From positions 1-12,101 of the forward strand of contig DATKZS010000165.1 of the NCBI GenBank assembly GCA_035527835.1: DNA of 12,101 nt, given 5' to 3'. Below the pieces are notes generated by a model that ran no database searches, had not been told where the DNA came from, and saw only the letters and a list, made by a program, of their open reading frames with translations. Source of the stretch: DATKZS01 sp035527835 [NCBI: bacterium]. GTDB lineage: Bacteria > RBG-13-61-14. Of this stretch, positions 983 through 10,607 are shown one piece after another; position 1 is the first letter of the stretch; each line of letters starts with the position of its first letter. The position numbers and the translations under genes were made by a program.

Positions 983-1060
983 GAGGCTTGAGGCGTGGGG
1001 CTTGAGGCTTGAGTTCGGAAGGCATTCGCCTCAAGCCTCAAGCCCCAAGCCCCAAGCCTC
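983..1060. repeat. 7-bp-period inverted repeat after pyrC
   Basis: The left arm 983-1013 is four 7-base units (GAGGCTT, GAGGCGT, GGGGCTT, GAGGCTT) plus GAG. The right arm 1030-1060 is its reverse complement with 29 of 31 positions pairing, around a 16-base centre. The outer end of the right arm overlaps the pyrC stop codon (1059-1061). As RNA it would be a very stable hairpin after pyrC and could help end the pyr transcript, but no T-run follows. Confidence 0.85.
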
Positions 1061-2330
1061 AAACCTTTACGACCTTGCCCTCCACGATCACCGCCCGGGC
1101 CTTGCCTTTGACCTTCCAGCCGTTAAATGGCGTGTTGCGGCCCTTGCTAAGGAACCTGGTCTTGTCCACCGTCCATTCCTCGTCGGGCGCGATCACGCTG
1201 ATGTCCGCGGCGGCGCCGACTTTAAGGCTCCCGCCGGGCACGGCCAGGATGCGGGCGGGGTTCATGGAGACCATCTCGACCCAGCGCGATGGAGTGATGA
1301 TACCGTCATGGACGAGGCGGAGCGAGAGGGGGAGCAGGGTTTCGAGGCCCACGATTCCATTTTGGGCCTCGCTGAACTCGAGGTCTTTTTCCACCAGGCT
1401 GTGGGGGGCGTGGTCGGAGGCGATGGCGTCAATGGCGCCGTCCTTGATGCCCTCGATCACGGCGAGGAGGTCGGCGCGGGAGCGGAGCGGCGGGTTCATC
1501 TTGAAGCTGGTGTCGTAGCCGCGCACGGCCTCGTGGGTGAGCGTGAAGTAATGGGGGCAGGTCTCGGCGGTGACCTTGACCCCCCGGGCCTTGGCCTCGC
1601 GGATGATGCGGACGGATCCGGCGGCGGAAACGTGCTGGACGTGGAGCCTGGCGCCGGTGAGCTCGGCCAGGATGACGTCGCGCGCGACCATGGTCTCCTC
1701 GGCGGCGGCGGGGATGCCGGTGAGTCCGAGCTCGGTGCTGATGATGCCCTCGTTCATGCATCCGCCGGAGGAGAGGTCGAGGTTTTCGGCGTGGTCGAGG
1801 ACGGGGATGTCGAGGGCGAGGCAATATTCGAGGGCGCGGCGGAAGAGCTCGGCGTTCATCACGGGCCGGCCGTCGTCGGAGGCGGCCACGCATCCGTGGT
1901 CCTTGAGCTCGCCGAGCTCGGCCAGTCCCTCGCCTTTCAGGTGCGCGGTGACGGCGCCGACCGGGTACACCCGGGCCTTGCCGGCCTCCCCGGCCTTTTC
2001 CAGGATGTAGTCGGTGACGGAGGCGTTGTCGTTCACGGGATTGGTGTTGGCCATGCAGGCCACGGCGGTGATTCCGCCGGCGATGGCCGCGGCGGCGCCG
2101 GTGGCGATGGTTTCCTTGTACTCCTGTCCCGGCTCGCGGAGGTGCACGTGCATGTCAATGAGTCCGGGCACGACCCAGCATCCCCTGGCGTCCACGACCT
2201 TGGCGTCGCCGGCTTTTTTCCCGGGGGGGAGCAGGTCCGCGACCCGGCCCTTTTCCACGAGCACGTCGCGGGGCTCGGCGAGGCCCTGGGATGGATCAAT
2301 CACGCGGCCGCCTTTAATTAGCAGTTTCAT
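1059..2330 (-). CDS. pyrC: Dihydroorotase, class I
   Basis: Converts N-carbamoyl-aspartate to dihydroorotate, the third step of de novo UMP synthesis, in the cytoplasm. At 423 residues it has the length of class I enzymes. Metal and substrate residues are all in place: [10 protein letters not shown] with H61 and H63; SDDGRP with D152/D153; H180 in LDHAEN; H233 in HVQHVSA; and the catalytic D306 in ASDHAPH. MANTNPV (93-99) and GIVGLET (325-331) are also typical. An active zinc enzyme is expected. The start ATG is preceded by GGAGGG (2340-2335) and lies inside the end of pyrB (17-base overlap), which points to translational coupling. It is the last gene of the pyr operon. Its stop codon is formed at the edge of a 7-bp-period inverted repeat. 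Confidence 0.97.
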
Positions 2331-3249
2331 CTGTCCCTCCGCACAAGAGATAAAGCAGGGCCATGCGCACGGCCACTCCGTTCTCGACCTGGTCGAGGAT
2401 GATGGAGCGCGGCCCGTCGGCGACCTCGGGGCTGATCTCGACGCCGCGGTTGATGGGTCCCGGGTGCATGATAAGGGCGTCGGGCCGGGCGCGTTCGAGG
2501 CGGCGCAGGTTGAGGCCGTAGCGGATGGAGTACTCGCGCAGGGTGGGGAAGCGGGTGCCGGAGCCGCGCTCGAGCTGGATGCGGAGCATCATGATCACGT
2601 CGGCGTCGGCGATGACGCGATCGAGGTCATAGGAGACCTTGGCGCCCATCTCCTCGATTCCGGGCGGGATGAGGGTCGGCGGTCCGCACACCCAGACGGT
2701 GGAGCCCATTATGGTGAAGCCCTGGATGTTGGAGCGGGCCACGCGGGAGTTTTGGATGTCGCCCACGATCACGATCTTGAGCTTATCGAGGCGGCCGAGC
2801 TTCTCGCGGACGGTGAACATGTCGAGCAGCGCCTGGGAGGGGTGGGCGTGCGCGCCGTCGCCGGCGTTGATCACGGGGGTGGGCACCATTTTGGCGATCA
2901 TGTGGGGGGCGCCGGAGGCCTGGTGGCGGATCACCAGGATGTCCGGCTTCATGGCCTGGATGTTTTTCACGGTGTCCATCAGCGTCTCGCCCTTGGTGGT
3001 GGACGAGGAGCTGCTGGTGAAGTTGACGGTGTCGGCGGAGAGCCGCTTGCCGGCGATCTCGAAGCTCATGCGGGTGCGGGTGGACGGCTCGAAGAAGAGG
3101 TTGACCTGGGTGCGGCCGCGGAGCGTGGGCACCTTCTTGATCGGCCTTAAATTGATCTGCTTCAAGGACTGGGCCGTGTCCAGGATCAGGTTGATGTCGT
3201 CGCGGCCCACCCCGGACAGGTCGAGCAGGCTCGTGATCTTGAGTCCCAT
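2314..3249 (-). CDS. pyrB: Aspartate carbamoyltransferase catalytic subunit
   Basis: Joins carbamoyl phosphate and aspartate to make N-carbamoyl-aspartate, the committed step of pyrimidine synthesis. At 311 residues it is the normal length. The carbamoyl-phosphate motif FFEPSTRTR spans 52-60. The flexible serine-rich loop with K86 and GE follows (79-88). HPSQALLD starts at H136, R169 is in GDIQNSRV, and HPGPINRG starts at 262. A strong AGGAGG lies just before the ATG. No pyrI regulatory subunit is adjacent, so feedback control may rest on the leader rather than on allostery; PyrB can also form a complex with class I PyrC, as in Aquifex (established for that species, inferred here). It is the middle gene of pyrR-pyrB-pyrC. 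Confidence 0.97.
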
Positions 3250-3395: not shown

Positions 3396-3953
3396 TTATT
3401 CTTCCTCCTTGTCCTCTCCCTCGACCAGCACCACCTTGTCGCCGCCCTTTTTCTGGCCCACGGTGACGTTCACGAGGTCGCCCCTGGCGGTGGGGATGTT
3501 GCGTCCGACGAAGTCGGGCCGGATGGGCAGCTCGCGGTGGCCGCGGTCTATGAGCACGGCGAGCTGGATGCGGCGGGGCCGGCCCATGTCCATGAGGGCG
3601 TCCATGGAGGCCCTGACGGAGCGGCCGGTGAAGAGCACGTCGTCCACCAGCACCACCACCTTGCCCTCGATCGGGAAGTCCACCATGGTGGCGTGGACCT
3701 CCGGGTGCGTCCGGGTGTGGAAGATGTCGTCGCGGTACATGGTGATGTCCATGTAACCGCAGGGCACGGTCCCGCCCTCGATCTCCTCCAGGAGCGCCTT
3801 CAGGCGCTGCGCGATCCCCTCCCCGCCGGTGCGGATGCCGATCAGGGCCAGGTCCTTGACGCCCCGGTTCTTCTCCACGATCTCGTGCGCGATCCGCTTC
3901 AGCGCGCGGTCCACGCCGGCGTGGTCCAGTATCTCCCTTTGCCGCTTCACCAT
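3396..3953 (-). CDS. pyrR: PyrR, pyr attenuation regulator / uracil phosphoribosyltransferase
   Basis: RNA-binding regulator of pyrimidine genes that, in Bacillus, binds leader RNA when UMP is abundant and favours termination; family members also have uracil phosphoribosyltransferase activity. The 185 residues align end to end with Bacillus PyrR as I recall it. The PRPP-binding loop is VLVDDVLFTGR (101-111), and YRDD is at 73-76. RGHRELPIRPD (137-147) holds the residues H139, R140 and R145 that correspond to RNA-contacting positions in Bacillus PyrR; RALKRIAHE (16-24) matches the other RNA-facing helix. The C-terminus has an acidic tail. It is the first gene of pyrR-pyrB-pyrC, directly behind a leader with a matching binding hairpin, which supports autoregulation. 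A GGGGAG lies 6 bases before the ATG. Confidence 0.96.
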   Translation of the reverse strand: MVKRQREILDHAGVDRALKRIAHEIVEKNRGVKDLALIGIRTGGEGIAQRLKALLEEIEGGTVPCGYMDITMYRDDIFHTRTHPEVHATMVDFPIEGKVVVLVDDVLFTGRSVRASMDALMDMGRPRRIQLAVLIDRGHRELPIRPDFVGRNIPTARGDLVNVTVGQKKGGDKVVLVEGEDKEEE

Positions 3954-4029
3954 CTTTGTCTCCCCGCCCCGTTAAAAGTCAGCGCCACGGGATGAAAACC
4001 TCTTCGATTGATGCGTCCGTCCGCCGGAC

Positions 4030-4059
4030 AAAAAAAAGCCTTCTCCTTGCGAAGAAGGC
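4030..4059 (-). terminator. Intrinsic terminator (attenuator) in the pyr leader
   Basis: On the minus strand, GCCTTCT (4059-4053) pairs with AGAAGGC (4044-4038) around an 8-base loop, followed at once by eight T (4037-4030). It sits between the promoter and pyrR, 76 bases before the start codon, so termination here would silence the whole operon. Part of its 5' arm can instead pair upstream (see the antiterminator). Confidence 0.85.
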
Positions 4060-4101
4060 ATGTGTTCCCGATGTCGGTCCTGGTCACTTATTTTCCTTCC
4101 T
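4052..4101 (-). promoter_or_regulatory. Candidate antiterminator in the pyr leader
   Basis: AGGAAGG (4101-4095) can pair with CCTTCTT (4058-4052), seven pairs including one G-U. The upstream strand overlaps the 3' arm of the PyrR-binding hairpin, and the downstream strand overlaps the 5' arm of the terminator. The three structures are therefore mutually exclusive in the order required for PyrR attenuation. The pairing is seen in the sequence; the regulatory role is inferred. Confidence 0.6.
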
Positions 4102-4132
4102 TTCTTATCTCGCCGGATAAAGTTAAAGGAAG
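4096..4132 (-). promoter_or_regulatory. PyrR-binding loop (anti-antiterminator)
   Basis: On the minus strand, a lower stem CTTCCTTT (4132-4125) pairs perfectly with AAAGGAAG (4103-4096). An asymmetric internal loop follows (AACT on the 5' side, one G on the 3' side). The upper stem TTATC (4120-4116)/GATAA (4109-4105) closes a hexaloop CGGCGA (4115-4110). The known Bacillus PyrR site has a CNGNGA hexaloop closed by a C-G pair, a short upper stem and a 5'-biased internal bulge; all are matched, while the upper stem bases differ but still pair. The neighbouring gene is pyrR. Confidence 0.85.
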
Positions 4133-4164
4133 CGCATCAAAATTTCTCGAATTACGCTTTCAGA

Positions 4165-4193
4165 ACCTTAGCACTATTGAATGAAGGTGTCAA
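4165..4193 (-). promoter_or_regulatory. Promoter of the pyrR-pyrB-pyrC operon
   Basis: On the minus strand, a perfect -35 TTGACA (4193-4188), a 17-base spacer ending in TGC (extended -10), then TAAGGT (4170-4165). Transcription should begin near 4158, giving a leader of about 205 bases that contains the PyrR hairpin and terminator. The promoter begins only about 28 bases after the stop of the preceding methyltransferase gene. Confidence 0.75.
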
Positions 4194-4954: not shown

Positions 4955-7900
4955 TCAGGTCTGGTTCCGGAGTTGGAGGCGGTTGGCGGCTTCCTTGGCT
5001 TTGGCGCCCAGCGGGGAGTCGTCTTTGGCCACGGCTTCGAGCAATTTGGCCGAGCCGGGCCCGCCGAGCCTGCCGAGCGCCTCGACCACGGCCAGGAGCA
5101 CGACGGGGGCGTCCTCCTCCTCAAGGGTCCGGCGCAGCTTCTTCAGAATCCCGCCTTTCTTTTTCCAGCGCTTCTCGCCCACCTCGATCAAGGTGGACTC
5201 GATCTCGGCCAGCAGGGGGGGATCGGGCATGGTGCCGATGCTGCGGATCAGGAGAGCGATCTTGTCTTCATGGTCCTTGGGGGTCTCGCGGGTCTTGCCC
5301 GGCTCGCTTGTAATGCGCGTCAGCATTCCCTTGATGGCGGCTTCCGACAGCGGCTGGATCAGGCTCAAGCCGGCGAGGGCCCGGCGCACGGTGCGGCGGT
5401 CGGAGTCATCCAGGGCCGCAATCAGGGCCGACTCCGCGGCCTTACCCTCGAAGCGGACCAGCGAGTTCAAGGCCTCCTCCCGCAGCTGCGGCTTCGAATG
5501 GCGCAGGAACCGCCGCGCCCGCTTGATGTCGTCCTCCCCGCCGCCGATCATGCTGATGATGAGCAGGGCGTTGCGCTGCAGGAACCAGGCCTGGACCGGG
5601 TCGTCGAGGATTTTACGCACGCGCTCGAGCGCCGGCGCCCCGATCTTGACCAGGGTGTCCACCGCGTTCTTTCGCGCCGAGCGCACTTCGCTGACGGACA
5701 GCACCTTGGCCAGCAACTCGACCCCGAGGTCTCCCAGCAACACCGCGATTTCATCCGCGGCCGCCAGGTCTCCGGCCTCGATTTTGTCAAAGGCCTTGAC
5801 CAGGTCCTCGATCAGGCCGCTGAAGACCTGGCCGATCGGGTTGCGCAGGTCGCCGGGCCCGTCCCGGAACACCGCATTGTCGGTCCCGGCCCGATGCAGG
5901 GACCGGGTGATGGCCAAGAGCGGCGCCCAGTCGTGTTTCTCGATCATGATCGGGGCCACGCGCTGGAAGCATTGGATGAGCGTGCGCGCGTCCTCGACAC
6001 GGGCGGCCTGCTCCACCTCCCGGACATAGCCCTCGAGGTTGTCCTTGACGTCATTGGTCAATTTCACGGTGTTGACCCGGTACTGGACTTGGGGCGGCAG
6101 CTCGTGGAAGGCCAGGATCTCCTTGAAATATAGCCCCTCCAGAAATTCGCGGGCCCCCGGAGCGTTCTCTTCAATCACGCGCAGGGCGATCAGGCGCACG
6201 ATCCGGATGGCGCCGCGCAGCCGGCGGGCGATGACGGCGCTGTCCGGGTCCTCCTTCTGTCTCTCGCGGAGATGATCGAGGTCCGCGAAGATCAATTTGG
6301 AGGTGGCCATGAGCATGGAGAAGGGAAAGGAAGCAATGACGCTGCTCTCCAGGTCTTCCTCGTCCAGGTCCTTGGAGTGCTTGGCAATGACGTAACAATT
6401 GAGAATAATCTCCTTGAGCAGCGCCGGAACGCGCAGGGGCCGGATGATGTCCTGCACGATGCGGACCTTCATCCGCCGCATCTCGCGTTCGTTCATGTTC
6501 TTGAACATCGGCATCACGCGCAGGTCCTTGGCCAGCCGGTTGATGGCCATCTGCACCCGCCAGGACACCTTGTCCTCCAGCTCGATCACGTCGTCAATAA
6601 ACACCGCGGACACCTCGGACACGCCGCATTCCGCCAGCATCTTGGTTAGAATCGCGCCCGCCTGTTCCCCGGCCTGGCCCCGGTCGGCCCGGGGATCGCT
6701 CATGATGGTGATGAAGGCGCCGAACGCTTCTTCGGCCAGGTCCTTTTTCAGCGCGATGCTGAGCAGGCCCTTGCGCTCGAAATATTCCTTGAGCTTGGGG
6801 ATGAAGGTCTCGGCCATACCGGCGCCGACCACGGTGCGCACGCTGATCTGGCCCTCGAGCACGCCGGAAATCAACAGGTCAGTCCTCTCCTTGGTGATCA
6901 TGTGCGTGATCATGATTTCCGGGGAATCTTTCAGGGCCTCCTTGAATTGGGCGTACAAGCCTTCGCGGGCCGCCATGGCGGAGGGGTGGTTCGGTTCGTA
7001 GTACGCGGACTTGGCCATGGCTTTGACCAGGTCCATAATGAAGAGACCGACCGGTTCGAGGCGCTCGCGCTCCTTGGGAGTCAGGTCCGACCGCTCCTGG
7101 ATGCCCGGCTTTTCCGGCGGCAGCTCCACCTCTTCCTGCGGCACTTCCCCCTGATCAAGCACCTCTCGGACCCAACCGACTTCCACCGCGTCGGGATCGG
7201 TCTTCGTCGGCGAGCCCTGCTCGACTTTGGCCGCCGGCCTCGCCGCCGCCGAACTCCCGGAGGCGTCGGCCTCCGGCTCCTCCGGCGTGGGCGGCCCTGA
7301 TTTCTCCGGCGCGCCAGCGGCCGTCTCCTCCAAGGGAGCGGCCTTTGCCTCCTCAGGCTTCTGGTCCGCGGCCGCGTCGTCGAACGCGACTGACGGCCCT
7401 TCTTTCGGCCCTGGTTGCACGAGCTCGTCTTCGAGCTCGGGGCCCTCATCGGCCGGACTCGGCGCGATGGCATTCTCCGGATGGTTGGGCGAGGGCGCTG
7501 CTCCGTGCGCTTCGGCTTGAGGCGCTTTGGCCGGTGCTTCCTCATTCAAAATGAATTCTTCCCCCGCTGCTTCATTCCCGGCCAGCGGCGGCGAGGGCGT
7601 CTTGCCGGTCTCGGTGGCCGAGGGTTGGGATGGGTGCGACGCGGCCGGCCGGATCCGTTCCGAAGGGATGGGCTTGGCCCGGGTCTTGGTCTCCGGCGCG
7701 AGTTTTTCCCTGGTCCCGCGCCGCGACGGGGGCGGGGCCGGCGGCCGGAAGCTCTCCGAGAAGATCGGCTGGCTGGACGGTGCGGAGCCGGCCGCGGGTT
7801 TTTCGTCGGCCGCGGATTTGCGGTCCGGCGCGGGAGCGGGCGCTTCGGGCTTGATGCGCTCGAGTTTGACTTCCGGGGCCTGGCCCGGCCGCTCGGACAG

Positions 7901-8233
7901 ATTCAGCTTCCGGCGGTACTCGTCATTGGACCGGAGCGCGGCTTCCAGGTCGTTGAGCGCCTTGGCGGAGTTCTCCATGAAATCAATCCACATCCCCGCC
8001 GGCCGGTTTCCCTGCTTGGCCGTCTCCGGGCTGATGGACATGGCCACCCTGCCGGAGATGCTGAAAACCTCCTCCAGTCCCGGCACCTGCAGGTCCAGGA
8101 TGATCGCCGCGCCCACGTGCTCGACCTTGGCCACCGGAAGGAACAGCCTCCCCTCCCGCAGCAGCGGATAGTCCTTTGCGAACTGATCCGCGTTCGGATA
8201 CTTAAGACGTAGATGTTTCACCGGCGTCGTCAT
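4955..8233 (-). CDS. Large PilZ-like / HEAT-repeat protein
   Basis: A 1092-residue protein of unknown function. Residues about 20-100 resemble a PilZ-like domain (LFLPVAKV, ISGRVAMSI, RPAGMWIDF), but the RxxxR and [D/N]xSxxG motifs for cyclic-di-GMP are not clear. Residues about 115-385 are a disordered Ala/Pro/Glu-rich linker. Residues about 386-515 form a folded module with AYYEPNHPSA (410-419) and TDLLISGVLEG (451-461) that I recall from other large HEAT-containing bacterial proteins. A helical region follows. About 820-1090 are HEAT-type repeats (GAPALERVRKIL, PQLREEALNSLVRF, GPGSAKLLEAVA). There is no signal peptide or membrane segment, so it is probably a cytoplasmic scaffold. No enzyme motif is seen. 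It starts the unit with the methyltransferase. Confidence 0.85.
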   Translation of the reverse strand: MTTPVKHLRLKYPNADQFAKDYPLLREGRLFLPVAKVEHVGAAIILDLQVPGLEEVFSISGRVAMSISPETAKQGNRPAGMWIDFMENSAKALNDLEAALRSNDEYRRKLNLSERPGQAPEVKLERIKPEAPAPAPDRKSAADEKPAAGSAPSSQPIFSESFRPPAPPPSRRGTREKLAPETKTRAKPIPSERIRPAASHPSQPSATETGKTPSPPLAGNEAAGEEFILNEEAPAKAPQAEAHGAAPSPNHPENAIAPSPADEGPELEDELVQPGPKEGPSVAFDDAAADQKPEEAKAAPLEETAAGAPEKSGPPTPEEPEADASGSSAAARPAAKVEQGSPTKTDPDAVEVGWVREVLDQGEVPQEEVELPPEKPGIQERSDLTPKERERLEPVGLFIMDLVKAMAKSAYYEPNHPSAMAAREGLYAQFKEALKDSPEIMITHMITKERTDLLISGVLEGQISVRTVVGAGMAETFIPKLKEYFERKGLLSIALKKDLAEEAFGAFITIMSDPRADRGQAGEQAGAILTKMLAECGVSEVSAVFIDDVIELEDKVSWRVQMAINRLAKDLRVMPMFKNMNEREMRRMKVRIVQDIIRPLRVPALLKEIILNCYVIAKHSKDLDEEDLESSVIASFPFSMLMATSKLIFADLDHLRERQKEDPDSAVIARRLRGAIRIVRLIALRVIEENAPGAREFLEGLYFKEILAFHELPPQVQYRVNTVKLTNDVKDNLEGYVREVEQAARVEDARTLIQCFQRVAPIMIEKHDWAPLLAITRSLHRAGTDNAVFRDGPGDLRNPIGQVFSGLIEDLVKAFDKIEAGDLAAADEIAVLLGDLGVELLAKVLSVSEVRSARKNAVDTLVKIGAPALERVRKILDDPVQAWFLQRNALLIISMIGGGEDDIKRARRFLRHSKPQLREEALNSLVRFEGKAAESALIAALDDSDRRTVRRALAGLSLIQPLSEAAIKGMLTRITSEPGKTRETPKDHEDKIALLIRSIGTMPDPPLLAEIESTLIEVGEKRWKKKGGILKKLRRTLEEEDAPVVLLAVVEALGRLGGPGSAKLLEAVAKDDSPLGAKAKEAANRLQLRNQT

Positions 8234-8510: not shown

Positions 8511-8539
8511 TTGACAATCGCCCTGGTTTCAGGTAGGTT
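8511..8539 (+). promoter_or_regulatory. Promoter of the DUF507 gene
   Basis: TTGACA (8511-8516), a 17-base spacer, then TAGGTT (8534-8539). The start point would be near 8546, giving a 5' untranslated region of about 34 bases. The -10 resembles that of the pyr promoter (TAAGGT). Confidence 0.6.
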
Positions 8540-8579
8540 GAGAACGGAAAATTTCAAGAAGTTCCATCCGTCATTAGCC

Positions 8580-9098
8580 ATGAGAATCTACCGGGGAAAA
8601 ATCAAGCCCATCGCGGAAGACATTGTCAACAGCCTCGTCCGGGAAGAGGACATCGAGGTCCCGCCCGAGGAGGTCCCCGAGGTGATCCTGGACGTGGAGG
8701 CCATCATCAAGGAGCACCTGCGCATGGAGGAGGAGATCGCGAGCCAGGCCCGGGAGATGATCCAGAAGCGCGGGATCAGCTACACCGAGTTCGGCAAGCT
8801 GAAAAGGATGATCGCGGAGGAGAAGGGGTTCGAGTCTGGAGACAAGGCCATCATCTGGATCACCAATCAGATCATCGAGAGCTTCATGTACAACAACCGG
8901 GTGGAGGAGGTCTACACCGAGGACCACGGGCTGCGCCAGAAGATCGCCAAGGTCTTTGACACCCACCTGGGCATCGCCCTGGAAGTGGACCGCGAGGTCC
9001 GCGACAAGATCAAGCACCTGGAGGAAGGCACGCCCGAGTGGGACATCGAATACCAGAAACTCTACCGCACTATCGCCCGCCGCAAGGGGCTGCTCTAG
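8580..9098 (+). CDS. DUF507 family protein
   Basis: A 172-residue protein of the DUF507 family, function unknown; to my knowledge the family is found mainly in Desulfobacterota/Myxococcota, Aquificota and Acidobacteriota. The opening MRIYRGKIKPIAEDIVNSLV is typical and fixes the start at 8580 rather than the in-frame ATG at 8277. It is highly charged and helical, with no signal peptide or membrane segment. Two halves appear related: HLRMEEEIASQAREMI (46-61) and HLGIALEVDREVRDKI (129-144). The only plus-strand gene in the window, it faces the URO-D-like gene across a perfect palindrome. There is no clear Shine-Dalgarno. Confidence 0.85.
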   Translation: MRIYRGKIKPIAEDIVNSLVREEDIEVPPEEVPEVILDVEAIIKEHLRMEEEIASQAREMIQKRGISYTEFGKLKRMIAEEKGFESGDKAIIWITNQIIESFMYNNRVEEVYTEDHGLRQKIAKVFDTHLGIALEVDREVRDKIKHLEEGTPEWDIEYQKLYRTIARRKGLL

Positions 9099-9248: not shown

Positions 9249-10415
9249 TTAATAATATCCGTATTTTTTCACCGCCCCGACCATTGCCCTTACGTTCTCG
9301 ACCTTGGCGTTAAATGGGACCTCGCACCCGGCGCCCAGGGTGAACGCGCCGTCCCTTCCCACTTCCTCGATCAGCCGCTTGCAATAGGCCTCGACCGTTG
9401 CCGGCTCGGCCTGATAGAGCATGAGGGGCGGCACGTCGCCCAGGATGCTGACGTGATTGCCGAGCACCTTGCGGGCGCGGAAGATGTCGGAGGCGCCGTC
9501 GAGCTGGACCGTGCAGGAGGCGGGCGGCAGCTCTTTTAAAAGCTCCAGGTTGCGGTCCCAGTTGCCGTCCATGTGCAGCGCGGTCAGGATGCCGTGGCGG
9601 GCCAGGCGCCCGCAGATTTTGGTGAGGCTTGGCAGCGCCAGGTCCCGGAACATGCGGGGCGAGATGAAGTCGTTGCTGGAGCGGTGGCACAGCACCATGA
9701 AGCGCTTGACCCCGGTCACGCGGCGGGAGGCCCGGGCCGCGAGCACAAAGCTCGGGACCGCGGCCATGGCGGCCTCCGCCACCAGCTCCGGGACCTCCAT
9801 CAAGTCGTCAATGAACGGCTCGAAGCTCCGGGTGCAGGAGAAGGTGTCAAACGGCGCTTCCAGGCCGCCTCCATAGTACATGGCCACGCCCAGCCTCCTC
9901 CAGATGCGCGTGTTCTGGCGGTAGTAATGGGCCTGGAGCGCGCCGTCGCGGATGAGCCGGAGGATGCCGCGGGCGCCCTGGAGGCGCGGATGGTTGGCGC
10001 GCCGCACCAGCTTGGTGAGCAGGGACAGGAAGGCGAGCCGGTCTCCGCCCTTATAGCGCTTGACCAACCACTCGTAGTCGCTCCGCTTCATGATCTCCAT
10101 TTCCAGGAACTGGGCGGGGCTGTCGGCGGGCAGCTCGCGGCCGGGGACTTTCATCTTCATGGGCACGAGCCAGGTATAGGCCTCGGGGCTCGCGGCGTCG
10201 AGCAGGTAAGCGGCGTCCCAGGGGCCGGCCAGGTCATAACACGCGCGCATGGCCTGGTGATATTTCTTCCGGCTCCACCACAGGTCGGCGCAGGTCATGC
10301 CGGCGCAGGCCGCGGCAAAGTAATGGATGAGCGGGGCCACCGGCACCCGGTCAGGCACGCCGCAGCGCATGGCCGTGTCGAGCCGCTCTTCGCTGGTCAT
10401 CCGGTCGCTGGTCAT
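9249..10415 (-). CDS. Uroporphyrinogen decarboxylase-like protein
   Basis: A 388-residue protein of the URO-D superfamily. It is not HemE: the usual GAPWT segment is absent. It resembles the UroD/MtaA-type proteins often found with corrinoid methyltransferases (TSEERL...PDRVPVAP at the start; ISPRMFRDLALPSL; GAGCEVPFNAKVENVRAMV at the end). In MtaA-type enzymes zinc is held by a HxC and a later Cys. Here H281 is kept in LHMDGN but the expected Cys is Asp, while C364 in GAGCEVP is present, so metal binding is uncertain. The ATG at 10415 has GGAG 8 bases upstream; an ATG at 10499 or 10400 is also possible. It follows the cytochrome assembly gene on the same strand with a 192-base gap and may or may not be cotranscribed. 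Substrate unknown. Confidence 0.8.
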   Translation of the reverse strand: MTSDRMTSEERLDTAMRCGVPDRVPVAPLIHYFAAACAGMTCADLWWSRKKYHQAMRACYDLAGPWDAAYLLDAASPEAYTWLVPMKMKVPGRELPADSPAQFLEMEIMKRSDYEWLVKRYKGGDRLAFLSLLTKLVRRANHPRLQGARGILRLIRDGALQAHYYRQNTRIWRRLGVAMYYGGGLEAPFDTFSCTRSFEPFIDDLMEVPELVAEAAMAAVPSFVLAARASRRVTGVKRFMVLCHRSSNDFISPRMFRDLALPSLTKICGRLARHGILTALHMDGNWDRNLELLKELPPASCTVQLDGASDIFRARKVLGNHVSILGDVPPLMLYQAEPATVEAYCKRLIEEVGRDGAFTLGAGCEVPFNAKVENVRAMVGAVKKYGYY

Positions 10416-10607
10416 GGCGCTGGCTCCGTCCGGGGGACTGGCCAGGCCGGGTGAATGACGCCGGACAATGGCAGCGCAATCTTCATGGTCCTGGATCATA
10501 ACATTGCCCTATGCTCAGGCCAAGCCCGCGATGCGGGGTCGTTCGGGTCATGGTGAATGCGGGCGAGGATTGCGTGTTAAGTCGCTCCCGCATGGTGGCG
10601 GATGATG

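Follow-up and report, generated by a model that had tools for sequence, protein, structure and literature searches.

The pyr locus and its leader

The window (the whole stretch of DNA analyzed, 12,101 nucleotides) carries a set of pyrimidine genes on its minus strand. The first of them, pyrR (3396..3953), encodes a 185-amino-acid uracil phosphoribosyltransferase/pyr regulator that matches the NCBIfam model NF003549 at 230.3 bits, against a cut-off of 138. The solved structures nearest to its product are 1ufr and 1non, the closest by sequence being 1ufr, which we take to be PyrR of Thermus thermophilus. Downstream on the same strand lie pyrB, which encodes aspartate carbamoyltransferase (2314..3249; NF002032, 405.9 bits, cut-off 263), and pyrC, which encodes dihydroorotase and overlaps the end of pyrB (1059..2330; TIGR00857, 429.2 bits, cut-off 279). 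A gene for a YceD protein (PF02620) also follows the three.

Just upstream of pyrR, direct reading and folding place a minus-strand hairpin at 4132..4096, its last base separated from the pyrR ATG (3953) by 142 nt. Between the two is an intrinsic terminator (4030..4059, minus strand), formed by a 9-bp stem with a 4-nt loop (4059..4038) and a run of eight T (4037..4030). The terminator stretch folds at -14.9 kcal/mol, and 1 of 200 shuffles folds as well. By eye, several leaders, among them L043, L014, L051, and that of the window (4037..4026), show TTTTTTTG after the T tract and then CC no more than one or two bases on. A weak sigma-70-like promoter was picked out by eye on the minus strand at 4165..4193 (TTGACA at 4193..4188, a gap of 17 nt, and TAAGGT at 4170..4165); a consensus scan reported no promoter there.

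What kind of organism carries this locus? The DNA is likely to come from outside the Firmicutes, and the host is probably an uncultivated Gram-negative bacterium. The best PyrB identity, 67%, was found in the phylum group of a metagenome-assembled genome (MAG) titled “Deltaproteobacteria” (G011), to which the in-depth PyrB search was confined; the loci of the best 80 of 394 PyrR relatives gave a best PyrB identity of 61%. For PyrR itself, the best identities were 62% in the “Deltaproteobacteria” group and 61% in a Nitrospirota MAG among the best 80 of 394 relatives.

A predicted PyrR-binding hairpin

The hairpin at 4096..4132 has a lower stem of 8 bp without mismatch (4132..4125 paired to 4103..4096), a bulge of 3 nt on the 5′ side only, and an upper stem of 6 bp (4121..4116 paired to 4109..4104). 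Its hexaloop, CGGCGA at 4115..4110, fits CNGNGA and is closed by the pair C4116-G4109. The preliminary description had read a PyrR hairpin with an intact CNGNGA loop at the same coordinates, naming no strand, and had remarked on the retained loop bases, the retained closing C-G pair, and the perfect 8-mer of the lower stem. All of this holds, on the minus strand. Its further remark that the upper stem uses different bases that still pair is borne out as well: relative to the Rfam consensus, the changes are paired ones, from G-C to A-U and from A-U to U-A. The fold energy over 38 nt is -10.5 kcal/mol, a value reached by 6 of 200 shuffles. The short loop motif CCNGNGAG occurs 11 times in the window versus 15.9 expected and is thus not rare on its own; no exact match to it lies between pyrR and pyrB, a stretch checked for a second PyrR site.

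The Rfam family for the PyrR binding site, RF00515, describes the hairpin together with the terminator, and its covariance model matches the whole leader end to end (model positions 1 to 115 of 115, on 4133..4028) at 44.3 bits. The E-value is 0.0016 over all 4227 Rfam families, yet the score does not reach the family's gathering score of 54. Window and family share the CNGNGA hexaloop, the C-G closing pair, the stem with its 5′ bulge, the downstream terminator, and the position before pyrR; they differ in the lower score and in the re-paired upper stem of the window. The match also sits, as family members do, in the leader of pyr genes in pyrR-bearing DNA, with pyrR, pyrB, and pyrC downstream on the same strand.

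Distribution and covariation in relatives

How common are such elements outside the Firmicutes? They had been taken to be thinly described there, but they are not rare: RF00515 matches at an E-value of at most 0.001 were found in 384 of 1004 genomes searched across seven phylum groups, each labeled by the record title of its seed genome. Only 64 of these genomes score above the gathering cut-off, so that the other 320 fall under it. Matches were most frequent in the groups of Omnitrophota (140 of 193 genomes, 12 over the cut-off) and Nitrospirota (135 of 198, 32 over), followed by Methylomirabilota/NC10 (36 of 95, 6 over), Zixibacteria (26 of 118, 1 over), the “Deltaproteobacteria” group (34 of 247, 12 over), and a group whose seed MAG is titled Bacteroidetes (G022; 13 of 148, 1 over). 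The remaining group, G010, had none in 5 genomes. The same searches of 14 control genomes gave matches in Bacillus subtilis, Lactococcus lactis, and Thermus composti. A 2013 survey that covered 255 genomes from 24 lineages (PMC3766115) classed this motif family as moderately distributed.

The matches keep company with pyrR. The gene was present in the fetched stretch for 252 of 256 matches (the exceptions being L135, L171, L225, and L239), and in the 226 of these 252 loci where a hairpin could be placed by the finder, the median distance from the hairpin foot to the pyrR match was 114 nt. The best 80 of 394 PyrR relatives carry the titles Nitrospirota, Omnitrophota, NC10/Rokubacteria, Zixibacteria, “Deltaproteobacteria,” a few others, and Firmicutes, and of 30 genomes behind such loci, 22 match RF00515 at an E-value of at most 0.001, 2 of them over the cut-off. 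One of the 30, a MAG titled Bacillota (G002), has two PyrR-type matches about 2 kb apart on one contig (L091 and L103); it is the sole such genome among them.

The relatives also allow the hairpin itself to be compared base by base. The finder used for this purpose requires at least 4 upper pairs, at most 1 loop mismatch, C[CT]TT before, and AAGG after, and since it demands them, pairs 1 to 4 and most of the loop conservation provide no independent test. Across 170 non-Firmicute hairpins, loop positions C1, G3, and G5 are constant (170/170) and A6 nearly so (167/170). Pair 4 varies in type (GC 65, AT 58, CG 28, GT 18, TA 1), and the pairs beyond it re-pair more often than with shuffled partners: pair 5 in 99% versus 59%, pair 6 in 92% versus 71%, and pair 7 in 64% versus 39%. 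The pattern of conserved loop and covarying stem that the preliminary description expected of a real protein-binding RNA is therefore seen in the relatives, where the hexaloop is kept while the stem re-pairs. Neither of the signs that it would have counted against a PyrR site appeared, since the covariance model gives a hit and the relatives retain the hexaloop. Three leaders (L330, L336, and L344) have CCC/GGGG in the lower stem in place of CCTT/AAGG, which makes them invisible to the finder; their 3′ arms retain a purine-rich, Shine-Dalgarno-like GGGGAG or GGGGAA.

Because it lies before pyrR, fits the Rfam model, and belongs with relatives that have a constant loop and a re-pairing stem, the hairpin of the window is best read as a predicted PyrR-binding hairpin outside the Firmicutes, a reading that these three lines support. 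A chance hairpin was considered and is ruled out by the model fit, the gene context, and the covariation. The identity that the preliminary description gave to the hairpin is thus supported; what it missed was a putative leader open reading frame (ORF) with a Shine-Dalgarno-like sequence in the 3′ arm.

The putative leader ORF of the window

The Shine-Dalgarno-like sequence AAGGAAGG can be read directly at 4095..4102 of the minus strand, with all of its bases but the last inside the hairpin 3′ arm; the core chosen by rule starts at its second AAGG (4098..4095). When the first 58 nt are folded, positions 4102 to 4096 have unpaired probabilities of 0.00 to 0.09, and 4095 has 0.92. Seven nucleotides past AAGGAAGG stands a GTG (4087), and from translation and the layout of relatives we propose that it opens a leader ORF of 46 codons ending in TGA (3947..4087, minus strand). 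The ORF would cross the terminator and stop at 3947, overlapping the pyrR ATG (3953) by 7 nt. Taken by itself, this open frame is not significant: in 91% of 5000 shuffles of the window's stretch the frame stays open into the terminator, and in 56% it ends at the pyrR start, because the stretch is poor in stop codons by composition. That it begins with GTG also counts against it. The relatives therefore have to carry the argument for a leader ORF in the window.

The leader-ORF rule in relatives

The first set comprised 102 non-Firmicute leaders, 31 Firmicute leaders, and the window. L081 to L103 (repeat genomes) and L133 (an identical leader) were excluded from its leader counts, and L002, titled Bacillota, was counted as “other” and not with the Firmicutes; among 188 pyrR-bearing loci, with duplicates and Firmicutes included, the finder placed no hairpin in 35. 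The hairpins end in a way that suggests a ribosome-binding site. In 149 of 170 hairpins, the base next to the AAGG of the 3′ arm (an AAGG that the finder requires) is A or G; a start codon comes after it. Outside the Firmicutes, start codons peak 7 to 9 nt past AAGG, with 0 to 2 ATG per position at 15 to 34 nt. Under a start rule with fixed Shine-Dalgarno spacing, 97 of the 101 non-Firmicute leaders with a terminator have such a start; 200 dinucleotide shuffles of the linker average 44.4 and never exceed 55. In the Firmicutes the figure is at chance level (11 of 29 leaders versus a shuffle mean of 11.6). Because the search model contains a terminator, finding one is in part built in; no start codon enters that model. 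The Shine-Dalgarno core overlaps the AAGG of the arm in 88 of the 97 leaders, and it lies wholly past the arm's first AAGG in the other 9, which counts against the leader-ORF model.

Where do these reading frames go? They begin with ATG (63), GTG (25), or TTG (9) and have a median length of 27 codons. Two of them, in Omnitrophota (L007 and L014), are much longer than this, at 93 and 77 codons, and run without a stop all the way from the hairpin to the pyrR start. Of the 97 ORFs, 94 extend as far as the terminator, versus a mean of 56.8 and a maximum of 70 in 300 shuffles, and the few such ORFs of the Firmicutes reach it in 8 of 11 cases, versus a null of 8.1. A stop falls within -4 to +11 nt of the pyrR start in 43 of 97 (null 22.1, maximum 31), most commonly in the form ATGA (17 leaders). 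With a wider bracket (-12 to +14), 46 stops lie near the pyrR start, 27 inside the terminator, 13 between the terminator and pyrR, 8 inside pyrR, 1 just before the terminator, and 2 well before it. In a frame control on the 97 leaders, the ORF frame extended to the terminator in 94, frame +1 in 20, and frame +2 in 61. The frequent openness of frame +2 speaks against the leader-ORF model; the control is less suitable than the shuffles because frame +1 is handicapped wherever the start reads ATGA or GTGA.

A held-out set was then drawn from matches outside the top 30 of each list: 80 of them, selected by eye with approximate spacing (40 Nitrospirota, 36 Omnitrophota, and 4 Methylomirabilota). 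The finder and the start rule were applied unchanged, with a pyrR search cut-off of 1e-5 instead of 1e-6. pyrR was found in 78 of 80, a hairpin was placed in 68 of these 78, and a terminator in 66 of the 68. All 66 leaders with both structures have the start codon (200 shuffles: mean 29.7, maximum 40), 63 of them have an ORF that reaches the terminator (mean 44.1, maximum 56), and 32 have a stop at the pyrR start (mean 16.4, maximum 24); the Shine-Dalgarno core overlaps the AAGG of the arm in 64 of the 66.

Of course, leaders share ancestry, and these counts are not of independent events. After similar leaders were merged (clusters share less than 65% identity over 45 nt), the start rule held in 159 of 181 clusters (shuffle mean 67.6, maximum 81). 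The Zixibacteria follow it in 17 of 21 clusters (null 7.0). The rule is weaker in the “Deltaproteobacteria” group (15 of 21, null 6.9) and fails in G022 (2 of 10, null 2.6). A feature noticed post hoc in G022, and in some of the “Deltaproteobacteria” leaders, is an ATG or GTG immediately at the foot of the hairpin. L300, L304, and L307 to L310 of G022 have an ATG 0 to 2 nt past the hairpin AAGG, closer than Shine-Dalgarno distance; in L333 and L345, which also have a start at the hairpin foot, the ORFs by eye cross the terminator to an ATGA at pyrR. Perhaps initiation at the foot starts of G022 proceeds without a Shine-Dalgarno sequence, the hairpin covering the start itself.

Is the encoded peptide of any importance? 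No selection at the peptide level was seen in 15 disjoint pairs of leader ORFs, in which differences at codon positions 1, 2, and 3 numbered 27, 27, and 34. Such a flat signal fits the idea that the act of translation matters and not the peptide, and it is equally expected of an untranslated ORF. Translation of the leader is thus argued from layout and not from a conserved peptide, there being no codon-position signal.

Ribosome or antiterminator?

Ribosome-mediated PyrR attenuation through the leader ORF is, in our judgment, quite probably the best explanation of the window and its relatives. The hairpin would act as the operator in feedback control of pyrimidine synthesis, and PyrR-UMP would bind it at the CNGNGA loop as the RNA emerges from RNA polymerase. 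With the Shine-Dalgarno sequence of the leader ORF held in the 3′ arm, bound PyrR would exclude ribosomes and leave the leader untranslated, the terminator (4059..4038) would fold, and transcription would halt before pyrR-pyrB-pyrC. When UMP is scarce, PyrR would be off the RNA, and a ribosome could start at the GTG (4087) and trail the polymerase. While on the leader ORF, it would cover the 5′ arm of the terminator and transcription would continue; it would finish where the ORF overlaps the pyrR start, a place at which re-initiation is possible. One step is left unexplained by this scheme, namely, basal access of the ribosome to the Shine-Dalgarno sequence, because the hairpin is predicted to be stable without PyrR (-10.5 kcal/mol).

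Could the RNA instead switch as it does in Bacillus? There, PyrR would stabilize the hairpin as an anti-antiterminator, the 3′ arm, when free, would pair with the 5′ arm of the terminator, and the leader ORF would be incidental. The bases for this are available in the window, where 4101..4095 can form 7 bp with a segment of the terminator 5′ arm, a possible antiterminator element at 4052..4058 of the minus strand, in a duplex of -8.8 kcal/mol. However, the free fold retains the hairpin for all transcript lengths tried, and 4133..4028 with the antiterminator imposed folds at -17.4 kcal/mol versus -30.1 kcal/mol when unconstrained, a cost of 12.7 kcal/mol. If such an antiterminator were under selection, the hairpin 3′ arm should pair better with the terminator 5′ arm of its own leader than with those of other genomes in the group, a comparison made with 30 permutation means. 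This is what the 29 Firmicute leaders show (cognate pairing of -11.26 versus -9.04 kcal/mol permuted, outside the range of -9.95 to -8.10). The Omnitrophota (60 leaders, -6.81 versus -6.79) and the Methylomirabilota (32 leaders, -8.68 versus -9.08) show no cognate excess, and the Nitrospirota (68 leaders) are borderline, with -10.09 versus -9.63 and a range of -10.02 to -9.19 that is just exceeded. Complementarity common to all members of a group escapes this test, and the terminators of Nitrospirota and Methylomirabilota often start with CCTTC or CCTCC, able to pair with AAGG(AG) in general. Nor does the Bacillus type of switch account for the start codons found at Shine-Dalgarno distance in 159 of 181 clusters, or for the lack of this pattern in the Firmicutes, and it is, on the whole, unlikely here.

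The two remaining explanations are less likely still. Control might be exerted on translation, as in Mycobacterium, with PyrR blocking ribosome entry, the leader ORF coupled to pyrR, and the terminator idle. The overlap of the Shine-Dalgarno core with the arm (88/97 and 64/66) would be expected if so, as would the ending of nearly half of the leader ORFs at the pyrR start (43/97 and 32/66). An idle terminator is nonetheless hard to reconcile with the fact that 101 of 102 non-Firmicute leaders and 66 of 68 held-out ones have a terminator separating the hairpin from pyrR, even if the search model includes one, or with the very good fold of the window's own (-14.9 kcal/mol), and the 27 of 97 leader ORFs that stop inside the terminator do so before any pyrR start to couple to. 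We consider purely translational control quite improbable. That the element is an ordinary leader hairpin that resembles a PyrR site and binds no PyrR can hardly be credited: the score of 44.3 bits is indeed below the gathering cut-off of 54, but the hairpin sits before pyrR with all loop bases kept and a terminator properly placed, and for 252 of 256 RF00515 matches in other genomes, the majority of which also score under that cut-off, pyrR was present in the fetched stretch.

Relation to known systems

PyrR attenuation, a textbook example of an RNA switch controlled by a protein, is known mostly from Bacillus. The pyr operon of B. subtilis uses an antiterminator and has several PyrR sites. 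Its attenuators and the leader of the window have in common PyrR, the binding loop, a terminator, and pyr biosynthesis genes; unlike in Bacillus, nearly every matching genome searched here has a single match, and the hairpin arm resembles the ribosome site of a leader ORF. In the pyrR leader of Mycobacterium smegmatis, the PyrR hairpin overlaps the ribosome-binding site of pyrR itself. The window shares the overlap of hairpin and ribosome site, but the site is that of a separate leader ORF, a terminator lies between, and the pyrR start is 142 nt away. The pyrBI leader of Escherichia coli (pyrL) also has, in a pyr operon, an ORF whose translation runs across a terminator. It works without PyrR, the sensing being done by UTP-dependent pausing of the polymerase; in the window, translation of the leader is predicted from the layout.

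The closest system mechanistically appears to be that of Thermus strain ZO5, for whose pyrR leader Van de Casteele et al. (J. Bacteriol., 1997) are said to have proposed that a translating ribosome, with no antiterminator, prevents formation of the terminator. By sequence, a layout of this kind is present in the window: the Shine-Dalgarno sequence of a short putative ORF lies within the hairpin, and the ORF reaches the terminator. ZO5 represents one genus, whereas the layout is found here in several other phylum groups. Among the literature matches listed, no report of PyrR attenuation through a leader ORF was found.

The hairpin itself belongs to a described family; behind it is a broad, testable layout pattern, in which the hairpin foot doubles as the Shine-Dalgarno sequence for a leader ORF extending to the terminator. 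We lean toward the view that PyrR attenuation outside the Firmicutes is mainly ribosome mediated, the ribosome acting as the antiterminator and often being handed on to pyrR, and that the antiterminator RNA of Bacillus is a special case. The form with a leader ORF would then be widespread, at least in Nitrospirota, Omnitrophota, Methylomirabilota, Zixibacteria, and Desulfobacterota-like groups, and perhaps older. If the layout works as proposed, the ribosome would serve as the effector arm of the sensor, and one protein would act on both transcription and translation. There are practical points as well. The Rfam gathering score hides most of the non-Firmicute matches (320 of 384 genomes), and short ORFs before pyrR may be regulatory.

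Other features of the window

Directly downstream of pyrC, at 983-1066, are two short heptamer arrays in opposite orientation, GAGGCTT repeated 4.4 times and GCCTCAA repeated 5.6 times. Weak Rfam microRNA matches coincide with these arrays; the matches to mir-1304, mir-939, and similar families at 960-1082 are far under their own cut-offs and lie on the short repeats, and they were rejected. Farther along, a URO-D family protein is encoded at 9249-10499 (minus strand), with top NCBIfam matches to methyltransferases of the MtaA/CmuA type, all below cut-off, and a DUF507 protein at 8526-9098 (plus strand), on the strand opposite to its neighbors. The protein of 1092 amino acids encoded at 4955-8233 (minus strand) has a weak N-terminal match to TIGR02266, below cut-off, and C-terminal HEAT repeats; its relatives are weak matches only, in 5 of 18 genomes, and give no lineage placement.
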